From assembly GCF_020544405.1 (NCBI RefSeq), contig NZ_CP065410.1, forward strand, positions 3,906,001 through 3,970,000: 64,000 nt of DNA, given 5' to 3'. Below, one piece after another: positions 11,752 to 17,313 of this stretch. The notes under the pieces are model-generated. The model was not told the DNA's origin. It did not search any database and was given only the letters and a program-made list of their open reading frames with translations. This DNA is from Pseudomonas sp. IAC-BECa141 (GTDB taxonomy: Bacteria; Pseudomonadota; Gammaproteobacteria; Pseudomonadales; Pseudomonadaceae). Every line of letters starts with the position of its first letter. Positions within the stretch are counted from its first letter, which is position 1. Made by a program: the position numbers and the translations under genes.

Positions 11752-12903
11752 ATGACCGTGGCCAAATCCTCGTTCGACATCAGCGCAAACTTCGACAGCG
11801 GCAACATCCAAGTCATCGACATCAGCAATCCGCTCAACCCGGTTCTGGCAATTCGGCCAGATACCCGCAGCGCCCATTTCCAGTGGTTCCACTTCAAGGC
11901 CAGCGGCCTGCACGTCCATCAGGAACACTGGTTTCGCCTGGTCAACGCCAGCCAGTCTTCCTACAACAAAGCCTGGACCGGCTATCAGGCGGTCGCTTCC
12001 TACGACCACGTCAACTGGTTCCGTATTCCTACCCAATTCGAAGGCGACAGCCTGCGCTTCTGCCTCGAAGCCGAGCAGACCCACGCCTGGTTCGCCTACT
12101 TCGAACCTTACAGCCGTGGCCGTCACGACTGGCTGATCGAACAAGCGCTGACCAAGGCCGGCACCGAACTGCTGGCCACCGGCAAAAGCGTCGAGGGCCG
12201 CGACATCCAGCTGCTACGCAAAGGCACTGGCGCCGAAGGTCGCCGCAAGATCTGGATCATCGCCCAGCAGCATCCGGGCGAGCACATGGCCGAGTGGTTC
12301 ATGGAAGGCGTGATCGAACGCCTGGAACATCATGACGATCCGGTACTGAACAAACTGCTGGCCAGCGCCGATCTGTACCTGGTCCCGAACATGAACCCGG
12401 ACGGCGCCTTCCACGGCCACCTGCGCACCAACGCCATGGGCCAGGACCTGAACCGCGCCTGGCAGAACGCCAGTCAGGAAATCAGCCCGGAAGTATTTTT
12501 CGTACAGCAGCAGATGGAAAAGTACGGCGTCGATCTGTTCCTCGACGTACACGGTGACGAAGAAATCCCCCACGTGTTCACCGCCGGCTGCGAGGGCAAT
12601 CCGGGCTACACCCCGCGCCTGGAGAAGCTTGAAGAGCACTTTCGCAGTCACCTGAAACACACCACCAAAGACTTCCAGACCAAGTACGGCTATACCCGCG
12701 ACGAACCGGGCCAGGCCAACATGACCCTGGCCTGCAACAGCGTCGGCCAGAAATTCGACTGCCTGTCGCTGACTCTGGAAATGCCGTTCAAGGATCACGA
12801 CGACGCGCCGAACCCGATCACCGGCTGGTCGGGCAAACGCTCGAAGCAACTGGGCAAAGACGTGCTGACCACCATCGCCGACATGGTCGACACCCTGCGC
12901 TGA
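11752..12903 (+). CDS. M14-family zinc carboxypeptidase (cytosolic carboxypeptidase-like)
   Basis: A 383-residue protein with the two-part layout of bacterial cytosolic carboxypeptidase-like enzymes. A beta-rich N-terminal domain (about 1-130) contains FQWFHFKASGL, followed by an M14 domain. Zinc ligands are visible as QQHPGEHMAEWF (His and Glu) and FLDVHGDEEIPHVF (second His); NPDGAFHGHLRTNAMGQDLNRAW is the substrate-binding loop with Asn-Arg. LTLEMPFKDH supplies the catalytic glutamate near the C-terminus. No signal peptide is seen, so it is cytoplasmic. The substrate is unknown; eukaryotic relatives trim tubulin glutamate. Confidence 0.88.
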   Translation: MTVAKSSFDISANFDSGNIQVIDISNPLNPVLAIRPDTRSAHFQWFHFKASGLHVHQEHWFRLVNASQSSYNKAWTGYQAVASYDHVNWFRIPTQFEGDSLRFCLEAEQTHAWFAYFEPYSRGRHDWLIEQALTKAGTELLATGKSVEGRDIQLLRKGTGAEGRRKIWIIAQQHPGEHMAEWFMEGVIERLEHHDDPVLNKLLASADLYLVPNMNPDGAFHGHLRTNAMGQDLNRAWQNASQEISPEVFFVQQQMEKYGVDLFLDVHGDEEIPHVFTAGCEGNPGYTPRLEKLEEHFRSHLKHTTKDFQTKYGYTRDEPGQANMTLACNSVGQKFDCLSLTLEMPFKDHDDAPNPITGWSGKRSKQLGKDVLTTIADMVDTLR

Positions 12904-14263: not shown

Positions 14264-14809
14264 TCAACCGCGATTGCGTCCCCGCAGCATGCTGTCGAGC
14301 ACTTCGTCGCGGCGCACCCAGCCATGAAACAGCGCCGCCGCCAGATGCAGCAGCACGGTCAGGAACAACAAATACGCCAGATACCCGTGAGCCTTGCGCA
14401 GCAACGCAAACACCTGCGCATCCGCCGGCACGATCGACGGCAATTGCAGGGACGCGCCGAGCATCACCGGATCCCCCGCCGCGCTGATCATCGCCCAGCC
14501 CAGCAGCGGCAACACCAGCATCAGCGCGTACAGCAACAGATGAGAGGCCTTGGCCGCCAGCACTTGCCAGCCCGGCAGATCCGCTGGCAGCGGCGGCTGG
14601 CGGGTGCCCAGCCGTACAAGAATGCGCACGATCACCAGCAACAGAATCGCGATGCCCAGCGGCTTGTGCAGATTGATCAGCCATTCATGCCGCGCCGACA
14701 CCGAGGTCACCATGCCGGCACCGATGAACAACATCGCGATGATCATCAACGCCATCAGCCAGTGCAGCAACCGCGCCAGCGGATTGAAATGAGTCGGTTG
14801 CGTGCTCAT
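14264..14809 (-). CDS. Cytochrome b561 partner of the catalase-like peroxidase
   Basis: A 181-residue four-helix membrane cytochrome of the bacterial b561 family. Histidines in helix positions suitable for two b hemes are visible in ARLLHWLMAL, INLHKPLG, SHLLLYALML and VLLHLAAALFHGW. Its start overlaps the stop of the peroxidase gene (ATGA), so the two are translated together. It could pass electrons from ubiquinol to the periplasmic peroxidase domain; this pairing is an inference from coupling. It lies in the unit driven by the ECF-type promoter at 15943-15969. Confidence 0.88.
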   Translation of the reverse strand: MSTQPTHFNPLARLLHWLMALMIIAMLFIGAGMVTSVSARHEWLINLHKPLGIAILLLVIVRILVRLGTRQPPLPADLPGWQVLAAKASHLLLYALMLVLPLLGWAMISAAGDPVMLGASLQLPSIVPADAQVFALLRKAHGYLAYLLFLTVLLHLAAALFHGWVRRDEVLDSMLRGRNRG

Positions 14810-15900
14810 GGGCGAGCCTCCTTTTTGCCGGTCGGCAGTTGGCTGACTTCGCTGGTGCGACGCAGGTAGGAATCGGCGTAACCGGCCGAGCGCGCGGCCA
14901 GCAACGGATCGTCGGAACCCTGAATGCCGGCCGGCAGCACCAGCGGATCGTAGTTGATGTCACGGCATTCACCGCTGAGCTGCGGCTGGGTCTTTTCCAG
15001 TACCAGAGTGCCGGCGTTCAACACTTTGCGGCCGGCGGGCCAGGTTTTGCTCGCGTCGTTCACCGGATCGTCGGCGTTGGCCAAGGTGATGTTCAACTGA
15101 AAGCGCAGCGGCCCTTCGGCCAGGCGTTGCACCAGGTCCTTCTCAAGGAAGTCGCTTCCTTCAGGCGCAGTCGCACCGGCAGCATCCTGGGCCAGAGGCG
15201 TCATGCTCCAGCGCACCGCCTGCTTCTTGCCGCTGGCATCCACCAGATAAAACGCGTTGATGCTGTTGTAGGTTTCCGTCGCGTAACTGGCCGACGGTCT
15301 GGCGGTTTTTATCCAGGTCAGAAACGGCACGGTTTCCGTGTGTGCGGCAAAAAATGCCGGCACCTTGGCCGGATCCGGCTTGCCCGTGGCGGGATCCGGC
15401 GATTGCGCCTGCTGCAACTGATAGAACGCCTCGGGCGTACCGACCGGGAATACCGGCATGCTGTTCATCCCGGTGCGCCACTGCTGGCCGTTGGCCTGAG
15501 TGAAACGCAGCGCCAGACTGCGGATCGGTACGGCGCTGTCCGGTGCGTACGGATTGCCGGCCGGTAACGCAAAGCGCCCGACCACCGGGGTGCGCGGCTC
15601 GTTGAACACTTGCGCGACCGAATACGAGCGAGCCTCACCGCTGCTCTCGAAGTAGCCGATCACGCAAACACCTTTGGCGTGATTGCGGCGAAAGCCGGGA
15701 TGCACGCCGTTGTTCTTTTCCAGCACATCGACCAACGCTTTCGGCGTCAGTCGTTGTGGGTCAAATGAACCATGAACGTAGGCAAACGCCCCGGCCAGGG
15801 CTGCGACCACCACGGCGATTCCGCCAAGCCGCAACACCAGGCTCGCGGCACTCAGTGGCGGGTGTTGTGGCCCGCCGGGCGATGAGCTGCGATCAACCAT
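14806..15900 (-). CDS. Membrane-anchored catalase-family peroxidase (SrpA-like)
   Basis: A 364-residue protein with a single N-terminal membrane anchor (about 19-42) followed by a mini-catalase fold. FRRNHAKGVCVIGYF carries the distal histidine, and RSAGYADSYLRR near the C-terminus carries the heme-ligand tyrosine. It is shorter than ordinary catalases (about 480 residues or more) and belongs to the catalase-related peroxidases such as SrpA. The domain should lie in the periplasm. The start at 15900 has GGAG eight bases upstream; an upstream in-frame start would overlap the promoter. It is co-transcribed with cytochrome b561. Confidence 0.88.
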   Translation of the reverse strand: MVDRSSSPGGPQHPPLSAASLVLRLGGIAVVVAALAGAFAYVHGSFDPQRLTPKALVDVLEKNNGVHPGFRRNHAKGVCVIGYFESSGEARSYSVAQVFNEPRTPVVGRFALPAGNPYAPDSAVPIRSLALRFTQANGQQWRTGMNSMPVFPVGTPEAFYQLQQAQSPDPATGKPDPAKVPAFFAAHTETVPFLTWIKTARPSASYATETYNSINAFYLVDASGKKQAVRWSMTPLAQDAAGATAPEGSDFLEKDLVQRLAEGPLRFQLNITLANADDPVNDASKTWPAGRKVLNAGTLVLEKTQPQLSGECRDINYDPLVLPAGIQGSDDPLLAARSAGYADSYLRRTSEVSQLPTGKKEARP

Positions 15901-15942
15901 GAAGCACTCCAGGGCCATCGGCCACAAGTAGGAAGAATCAGC

Positions 15943-15969
15943 AAGACGCACGCCATCGGGATTTATTCC
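15943..15969 (-). promoter_or_regulatory. ECF-type promoter of the peroxidase/b561 unit
   Basis: Read on the minus strand: GGAATAA (-35), 14 nt, CGTCTT (-10). The divergent sigma gene has the same two elements with the same spacer. This identity strongly suggests recognition by the same ECF sigma factor. Confidence 0.85.
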
Positions 15970-15997
15970 ACGGTCCGGTATTTATTTTTCAGAACGT

Positions 15998-16024
15998 GGA
16001 ATAACCTCCAATGCCGGACGTCTT
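15998..16024 (+). promoter_or_regulatory. ECF-type autoregulatory promoter of the sigma/anti-sigma operon
   Basis: GGAATAA (15998-16004), 14 nt, CGTCTT (16019-16024), 33 bp before the sigma-factor start codon. It is a mirror of the promoter for the peroxidase unit. Confidence 0.85.
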
Positions 16025-16057
16025 CCTAGTCCACAGCGTAGTGACTAGTAGAACTTC

Positions 16058-16564
16058 ATGAGCGAATTCGACGAACAACTGAGAGAAATCATTCCCAGAT
16101 TGCGGCGCTTTGCCGTGTCGTTGACCCGCAACGGCAGCAGCGCCGACGATCTGGTACAGGCCAGCCTGGAGCGGGCGCTGTCGAGTTGGGGCGACAAACG
16201 CGCCGACGGCGATCTGCGCGCCTGGCTGTTTTCGATCCTGTACCGGCAGTTCCTCGATGCGCATCGGCGTTCGCGGCGGTATGCGCGGATGCTCGAGTTC
16301 TTCACCGGCCGCGATGACGCCGAGCCCTCGGTGGAACGCACCGTCATTGCCCAATCGACCTTGCAGGTCTTCGACCGACTGCCCACCGAACAGCGCGCGC
16401 TGCTGTTGATGGTGTCGGTGGAAGGCCTGACTTATAAGGAGGTCGCCGAGATTCTCGACGTCCCCACCGGCACCGTGATGTCGCGCCTGTCCCGTGCTCG
16501 CCAGGCCCTGCGCCAGCTCAGCGACGGGGAAATCAGCAGCCCTTCCTTGCGGATACTCAAATGA
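16058..16564 (+). CDS. ECF sigma factor controlling the peroxidase/b561 unit
   Basis: A 168-residue group 4 sigma factor. Region 2 (about 10-75) contains SADDLVQASLERAL and DLRAWLFSILYRQFLDAHRR. Region 4 (about 100-155) contains LPTEQRALLLMVSVEGLTYKE followed by VAEILDVPTGTVMSRLSRAR. Its stop overlaps the start of the downstream anti-sigma gene (ATGA, 16561-16564). Matched promoters in front of this gene and the divergent peroxidase gene show the likely regulon. It does not match AlgU, SigX or iron-starvation sigmas in context. Confidence 0.92.
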   Translation: MSEFDEQLREIIPRLRRFAVSLTRNGSSADDLVQASLERALSSWGDKRADGDLRAWLFSILYRQFLDAHRRSRRYARMLEFFTGRDDAEPSVERTVIAQSTLQVFDRLPTEQRALLLMVSVEGLTYKEVAEILDVPTGTVMSRLSRARQALRQLSDGEISSPSLRILK

Positions 16565-17313
16565 TCAGTCTGCCTCCCAACGAACGTGACCTGCACGCCT
16601 ACGTCGACCACCAGCTCAGCGAGGCCGACCGACATGTGCTGGAAACCTGGCTCGCCAGCCATCCGGACGAAGCGGCGCAGGTTCGTGCCTGGCAACAGGA
16701 TGCCCAGCACCTGCGCGCTGCCCTCGGCGGTGCCTTGCAACAACCGGCCAATCCGAACCTCGATCCGTCGCTGATCCGTCAGCGACTCAAGCGCCAGTCG
16801 CGCCGCCAATGGGCCAGCGCGGCGGTGCTGCTGATTGCCGTCAGCCTCGGCGGTGTCGGTGGCTGGAAAGCTCGGGACATGACCGTGTTTCATCCCCCGG
16901 CACCGATGACGGACGCCTTGCAGGCCTACCGTTTGATCGCCCAGCAAGGGCTTCTGCCGGCGGACTACAAGGTCAACGGCGACGGCGACATCCAGCGCTG
17001 GCTCGACCGTTACTTCACTCAGGCCAATCGCCTGCCGGACCTGACATCGGCTGGATTTACACCGGTCAGCGGTCGTCTGCTGAGCACCGATGAAGGCCCG
17101 GCGGCGATGGTGATGTATGAAGACCAGAGCGGGCACAAGGTCAGTTTCTACGTGCGTCCACCAGGACCGAAAAATACCTTTCTGCCCCGGGGCAGCCGCC
17201 AGGACGGAGATCTGCAGGCCGAGTACTGGTCCGGCAAGGGCTACAACTACGCGATGGTCAGCCCGACTGACACACCTGCAGCGAAAATGCTCAAGCAATC
17301 CGTAAGCTTCTAG
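16561..17313 (+). CDS. Transmembrane anti-sigma factor
   Basis: A 250-residue protein translationally coupled to the ECF sigma gene. The N-terminal cytoplasmic part (1-75) has NERDLHAYVDHQLSEADR, the pattern of anti-sigma ZAS domains but without the HxxxCxxC cysteines. One membrane helix follows (about 82-98, ASAAVLLIAVSLGGVGG). The C-terminal 150 residues are periplasmic, with a conserved-looking VSGRLLSTDEGPAAMVMYED region. Absence of redox cysteines suggests that release of the sigma factor is triggered in the periplasm or by another signal rather than by direct thiol oxidation. Confidence 0.88.
   Translation: MISLPPNERDLHAYVDHQLSEADRHVLETWLASHPDEAAQVRAWQQDAQHLRAALGGALQQPANPNLDPSLIRQRLKRQSRRQWASAAVLLIAVSLGGVGGWKARDMTVFHPPAPMTDALQAYRLIAQQGLLPADYKVNGDGDIQRWLDRYFTQANRLPDLTSAGFTPVSGRLLSTDEGPAAMVMYEDQSGHKVSFYVRPPGPKNTFLPRGSRQDGDLQAEYWSGKGYNYAMVSPTDTPAAKMLKQSVSF

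Follow-up and report, generated by a model that had tools for sequence, protein, structure and literature searches.

A divergent ECF sigma factor module with a catalase-family peroxidase and a cytochrome b561 in Pseudomonas sp. IAC-BECa141

The PrtI and PrtR proteins of Pseudomonas fluorescens are a studied pair consisting of an extracytoplasmic function (ECF) sigma factor and its transmembrane partner. Here, we describe a related sigma/anti-sigma pair from Pseudomonas sp. IAC-BECa141 (GCF_020544405.1), encoded divergently from a catalase-family peroxidase and a cytochrome b561. The module lies in a stretch of 64,000 nt (NZ_CP065410.1, positions 3,906,001-3,970,000), referred to below as the window. 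Its anti-sigma factor has a 78% identical relative that carries the name PrtR. PrtI itself has been described as a regulator of a temperature-dependent protease, and the same study classed the sigma factor EcfB (BCAL3478) of Burkholderia cenocepacia as PrtI-like (Menard et al. 2007, PMC2194791; this and the following papers are cited from portions of their open-licence text). The comparison with PrtI is made here by its published description, and the cited portion of that study draws no link between PrtI and a peroxidase. The sigma factor of the window is 61% identical over 165 residues to the EcfB orthologue and 40% identical over 155 residues to a pSymA-encoded sigma factor of Sinorhizobium meliloti, probably RpoE6. 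In S. meliloti, RpoE1, RpoE3, RpoE4 and RpoE6 belong to group ECF26, for which a consensus of GGAATA (-35) and GT (-10), mostly small regulons and an anti-sigma factor composed of an N-terminal domain, a membrane span and a periplasmic domain have been reported (PMC6180224). The module shares this architecture, its promoters contain both consensus elements, and an RpoE1-dependent promoter, GGAATAA...GTGTCTT, resembles them. However, RpoE1 and RpoE4 respond to sulfite compounds and control an operon for sulfite oxidation, and the conserved ECF26 neighbours are lipoprotein or serine protease genes (PMC6180224). Such a neighbour, common but not universal in the group, is absent here, where the peroxidase and b561 genes take its place.

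Comparison of sequences makes it nearly certain that one ECF sigma factor drives both its own operon, including the anti-sigma gene, and the peroxidase-b561 operon: a shared promoter motif precedes both units in 91 of the 93 loci with the divergent layout, is kept by the peroxidase in 10/10 loci of the genus in which the sigma gene has been separated from it, and occurs in 23/24 loci with this sigma class as opposed to 0/33 loci without a nearby ECF sigma gene. A preliminary description, made by a model from the letters of the window, had proposed this control on the basis of identical promoters with equal spacing, and both points were borne out. The window holds two exact copies of GGAATAA-N14-CGTCTT, one before each unit, and 100 dinucleotide shuffles of the window yielded none. 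For the genus, we searched 149 genomes for the peroxidase and for the sigma factor (the latter at E up to 1e-45). The sigma factor was found in 108 genomes and the peroxidase search matched likewise 108, three of which (G032, G170, G198; G and L numbers are our handles for genomes and loci) contain remote relatives only. Both genes were thus present in 105 genomes, the sigma factor alone in 3, a remote catalase relative only in 3 and neither in 38, while an orthologous peroxidase never occurred alone. Among 110 fetched loci (L033-L142), 93 were divergent within 500 nt; 10 without an adjacent sigma gene and 7 remote catalase relatives were set aside. In the divergent loci, GGAAT-N15-17-CGT[CT] was present on the sigma side in all 93 and on the peroxidase side in 91, compared to means of 0.38 and 0.56 (0.005 for both sides together) over 200 shuffles. 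The base following GGAAT, left free by the anchor GGAAT-N16-CGTC, was an A in every sequence of sufficient length (93 sigma-side, 65 peroxidase-side), and much of the spacer varied between loci. In G201, the peroxidase operon and the sigma gene even reside on different contigs, and both keep the motif. A chance promoter match was ruled out by the window shuffles, the genome scan described below and the shuffled loci.

The association extends beyond the genus. At E up to 1e-45, the peroxidase was detected in 37/398 genomes of the same phylum, and 28 such loci were examined (L168-L195). Eleven have a divergent sigma gene, and ten of these carry the motif before the peroxidase; in L175, a remote sigma gene lies upstream, with its own start beyond the stretch read. 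In Pantoea, all four genes are co-directional with the sigma gene downstream, and the motif precedes the peroxidase; in Methylobacterium and two further loci, the sigma gene comes first and the motif is found just before it. Motif placement therefore tracks gene order. We also analyzed 79 loci from a genome scan with a Caballeronia relative, which share peptide words with the query and are not a random sample. Twenty-four have a sigma gene of this class divergent within 400 nt, with the motif directed toward the peroxidase in 23 and toward the sigma gene in 23. Of the 33 loci with no ECF sigma gene within 3 kb, none has the motif (Fisher p 5e-15 vs 23/24), and among 22 loci with other ECF sigma factors one has a motif match. 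The 24 loci include Salinicola, Lysobacter antibioticus and Sorangium cellulosum, a taxonomic breadth that suggests transfer or great age. These distributions, together with the co-occurrence within the genus, make it highly improbable that another sigma factor of the cell reads the promoters and that the neighbourhood is accidental. A paralogous ECF sigma factor in the own genome (43% over 132 residues; G000:C1:3192110, L206, L237), followed by an anti-sigma-like gene, could be cited for that view, but no GGAAT promoter of this type was found upstream of it (7.5 kb fetched). As a separate observation, L273-L282 and L290 represent yet another ECF/peroxidase pairing in Burkholderiaceae, and in L136, L137 and L138 an additional catalase-like gene of greater divergence is accompanied by a different ECF sigma gene and an anti-sigma-like gene, but by no b561.

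How far the regulon reaches was addressed by a genome search of the kind the preliminary description had recommended. In the own 6.22 Mb genome, no third copy of GGAATAA-N13-15-CGTCTT was found, which rules out a broad regulon with the exact motif. The looser GGAATA-N14-16-CGTC gave 25 matches vs 10 for the reversed control; 18 of the 23 outside the module fall within mechanically called open reading frames (ORFs) of more than 200 codons, and five (L144, L146, L158, L162, L167) lie outside such ORFs. The motif with N13-15 has matches in 57/144 related genomes, but the reversed control likewise gives scattered matches, and extra-module copies are therefore no evidence by themselves. The possibility, raised beforehand, that the promoter sequence is widespread before unrelated genes is not borne out in the own genome, although in four related genomes an additional copy precedes a different gene. 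Two of them, G085 and G068, have a third copy 89-90 nt ahead of a gene that was judged by eye to be alpha/beta-hydrolase-like and whose product seems to carry a signal peptide (L244, position 257; L248, position 2844 (+)). The other two, G063 and G168, possess the sigma gene but no peroxidase; their copies lie 3-4 kb from the sigma gene and upstream of a gene for a beta-propeller protein that likewise seems to carry a signal peptide (L241, position 3223 (+); L242, position 9316 (-)). G085 has also lost the peroxidase; a stretch of 37 residues resembling the b561 end remains, and the sigma gene keeps its promoter. Such copies, and the placement of the Burkholderia orthologue close to PrtI as a regulator of temperature-dependent proteases (Menard et al., PMC2194791), would fit a sigma factor whose main task is PrtI-type control of temperature-dependent secreted enzymes, with the peroxidase operon as one local target among several. 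Given the missing third copy in the own genome, the position of most looser matches inside long ORFs and the statement of the same authors that no protease gene is near the Burkholderia sigma gene, we regard this as unlikely.

The sigma factor comprises regions 2 and 4 only and is accompanied by an adjacent membrane anti-sigma factor, as is typical for an ECF sigma factor. The anti-sigma factor had been noted to lack HxxxCxxC, making direct thiol sensing unlikely; in fact, it contains no cysteine at all, and among 104 relatives 95 are cysteine-free, nine have a single cysteine at scattered places and none has the motif. Zinc- or thiol-based sensing of the ChrR/RsrA type was ruled out by these missing residues. 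The protein has no Pfam match and matches the NCBIfam model 'antisigma' weakly (32 bits vs a cut-off of 100), and its periplasmic domain is possibly RseB/MucB-like. By comparison, this membrane-spanning arrangement favours the previously suggested signal on the periplasmic side. An anti-phage role was rejected, as PADLOC gave no match for either the peroxidase or the anti-sigma factor.

According to the alignments, the peroxidase has the residues of a heme catalase/peroxidase, namely a distal His, a proximal Tyr and an Arg four residues ahead of the Tyr. His74, Arg337 and Tyr341 are present in 142/142 aligned relatives (G191 counted twice, as L090 and L171; 7 remote relatives included), and distal Asn146 in 130. 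The case of a peroxidase devoid of heme, which the preliminary description had weighed, is contradicted at the sequence level by this conservation. Cys79 and Cys312 each occur in 139/142 sequences; the three exceptions are remote relatives that also lack a b561, whereas three other b561-less relatives do have both cysteines. A Cys79-Cys312 disulfide would be only a guess, because the quality of the structure model (pLDDT 70.3, with low values around the active site) does not allow a decision on contact between the two residues. The best solved relative in both sequence and fold is a 33 kDa catalase-related protein of Mycobacterium avium subsp. paratuberculosis (3e4w/3e4y), which differs in having Leu and Gly at the two cysteine positions and Gln at that of Asn146; it aligns from its residue 11 and therefore has no room for a membrane anchor. 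For the cytochrome, His16, His48 and Arg13/62/66 are found in 136/136 relatives (G191 again counted twice), and His90/141/155/162 in 135/136. The b561 gene adjoins the peroxidase gene in 136/142 loci and in 68/79 loci of the 79-locus survey. For BcnA/LcoA, a b561 in the membrane has been proposed to supply a partner protein in the periplasm, which quenches the oxidation of lipids (PMC9113575); however, that partner is a lipocalin rather than a heme peroxidase, and the cited portion of the paper mentions no ECF sigma factor. Among the ECF26 targets of S. meliloti is SMc01022, a four-span membrane protein of the YceJ family (PMC6180224), which raises the possibility of more than one link between ECF26-like sigma factors and b561-type proteins.

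The b561 belongs to the same family as Escherichia coli CybB (5oc0) and shares its conserved histidines; CybB is the only solved b561 relative found by sequence and is described as a superoxide:quinone oxidoreductase (PMC11869295). Under the same regulation, the two enzymes might hence work in parallel, with the b561 acting like CybB as a superoxide oxidase that feeds quinone and the peroxidase separately removing peroxides with another donor. The superoxide antenna of CybB is mostly missing, though, in the module protein, which is paired with a peroxidase. Of R30, R35, R38, R108 and K134, only K134 has an aligned basic residue (R138, in 128/136 relatives), whereas the other four align with V34, A39, E42 and A111 (alignment read by eye), and the match to the NCBIfam CybB model, at 66 bits, is far under its cut-off of 170. 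R40, present in 121/136 relatives, does lie near the missing antenna positions. With four of five antenna residues lacking a basic counterpart, superoxide oxidation by these residues was rejected, and the parallel arrangement as a whole appears rather unlikely. Another alternative concerns the peroxidase, which might be an oxygenating or biosynthetic heme enzyme, as in some catalase relatives, within a module that makes or modifies a compound. Chanoclavine synthase is among its top fold matches, and nine genomes carry extra genes between the sigma and peroxidase genes (L042/L238, L058/L246, L064, L078, L081, L082, L086/L247, L094, L099). These encode a membrane protein in 9/9, an AMP-binding enzyme in 8 (G011 not checked for it) and a crotonase in 7/9; the membrane protein, without a match in Pfam, resembles a ferric reductase on inspection. 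However, 93/103 orthologous loci are free of intervening genes, the peroxidase keeps its own promoter behind such genes elsewhere, and induction of the Burkholderia copy by hydrogen peroxide, described below, fits defence. A biosynthetic role thus seems quite unlikely.

The Burkholderia copy provides published expression data. B. cenocepacia NCTC13227 possesses all four genes in the same divergent layout with both promoter motifs, the proteins being 61% (sigma), 62% (peroxidase), 59% (b561) and 46% (anti-sigma) identical to those of the window. Both ecfB primers published for strain J2315 (Menard et al. 2007, PMC2194791) match the NCTC13227 sigma gene exactly, identifying this locus as the copy of BCAL3478/BCAL3477. 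In a biofilm study, BCAL3477 was induced 1.7-, 6.5- and 23.1-fold at 15, 30 and 60 min after H2O2, while BCAL3478 showed no significant change, then 5.5- and 16.6-fold induction, at the same times; the authors remarked on the similar patterns of the divergent genes and left the role of the sigma factor open (PMC2830190). Induction of BCAL3478 is repeated in PMC11139773 and PMC5295037, and baicalin slightly lowered BCAL3477 (-1.5; PMC5749847). Co-expression of BCAL3477/BCAL3478 and the PrtI-like sigma lineage are therefore already in print, for another genus; the portions of PMC2830190 and PMC2194791 cited here do not describe the promoters, the b561 partner or the sigma dependence. In the open-licence literature searched, we found no paper joining these three elements, and ECF classification papers may list the context. 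The available text of PMC4373377 and PMC8195247 deals with other genes, that of PMC10880074 with an ECF26 promoter switch only, and that of PMC3597554 with five P. syringae ECF sigma factors, the sought terms being absent. The earlier remark on the lack of a characterised example in Pseudomonas needs qualification to this extent, as the sigma lineage had been described and the Burkholderia copy has expression data. Three further loose motif matches in B. cenocepacia (L332, L335, L336) have no recognisable lipocalin/b561 or chloroperoxidase gene in nearby ORFs.

The features of the module are compiled in Table 1; their positions and gene identities had been assigned correctly in the preliminary description. 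In both operons, the start codon of the second gene overlaps the stop of the first by 4 nt. The mechanical ORF of the peroxidase begins at GTG 15951, within the spacer of the promoter, immediately ahead of the -10 element and therefore upstream of any transcript, leaving ATG 15900 as the start. In the vicinity of the module (window 11752-12903) there is a gene that by eye resembles a zinc carboxypeptidase gene, as is also the case in L081, L243 and L245.

Table 1. Genes and predicted promoters of the module, in window coordinates
Feature	Position	Strand	Support
Cytochrome b561, prokaryotic type	14264..14809	-	PF01292 E 2e-33
Catalase-family peroxidase, predicted N-terminal membrane helix 18-40	14806..15900	-	PF00199 E 2e-30; ATG 15900
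Predicted ECF promoter of peroxidase-b561 operon, GGAATAA-N14-CGTCTT	15943..15969	-	
Predicted ECF promoter of sigma-anti-sigma operon, GGAATAA-N14-CGTCTT	15998..16024	+	
ECF sigma factor, PrtI-like lineage, ECF26-type promoter	16058..16564	+	Sigma70_r4_2 E 6e-17
Anti-sigma factor, membrane-spanning, cysteine-free	16561..17313	+	

We consider the module to be, with fair probability, a closed stress circuit in which a sigma-controlled b561-peroxidase pair reduces peroxides with electrons from quinol. In the unstressed cell, the transmembrane anti-sigma factor would hold the sigma factor. The periplasmic domain, which is possibly RseB-like, would perceive a signal on the outer side of the inner membrane by means other than thiol chemistry, and the sigma factor would be released. 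Once freed, it should transcribe its own operon, providing positive feedback as well as new anti-sigma factor, and the divergent operon, providing the membrane-anchored catalase-fold heme peroxidase and the cytochrome b561. The two enzymes most likely function as a pair, with the b561 handing electrons from membrane quinol to the peroxidase, and we infer that the docked peroxidase replaces the antenna on the b561. At the periplasmic face, the peroxidase would reduce peroxides; besides H2O2, its substrates probably include, to no lesser extent, organic or lipid peroxides or other late oxidation products. A more specific version, in which a quinol-fed catalase-fold peroxidase with its dedicated b561 is switched by a single-chain, RseA- plus RseB-like anti-sigma factor sensing an oxidised lipid or late oxidation product in a cysteine-free manner, is offered tentatively and seems doubtful as a whole.

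Several observations weigh against this circuit. With regard to regulation, the peroxidase-side motif is missing in L124 and L131 despite the sigma gene and in L178 despite a divergent one, and L293 has neither motif despite a sigma factor of this class; moreover, PrtI has been described as regulating a protease (Menard et al. 2007, PMC2194791). With regard to the enzymes, 11/79 loci have a catalase-like relative beside other ECF sigma factors with no b561 detected, and the wider family thus does not strictly require the pairing; no fused b561 domain appeared among the 120 listed of 3521 homologues, and the net charges on either side of the peroxidase anchor do not discriminate between its two possible orientations. 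With regard to the signal, 5 min of NaOCl caused no significant change of BCAL3477 or BCAL3478, and the authors argued against direct neutralisation of exogenous H2O2 by BCAL3477 and for an indirect triggering of the catalase (PMC2830190). The missing response to brief NaOCl and the late, indirect response to H2O2 tell against a simple peroxide or hypochlorite sensor.

For the widespread PrtI-like sigma lineage, the module supplies a well-defined target in the form of a two-protein membrane peroxidase unit. It also offers a simple reason why BCAL3477 and BCAL3478 share a late response to H2O2, a point that the published work had left open. If electrons do pass from quinol via b561 to a catalase-fold heme, this would constitute a new route for peroxide reduction at the membrane, and the cysteine-free nature of the sensor makes the identity of its signal directly testable.

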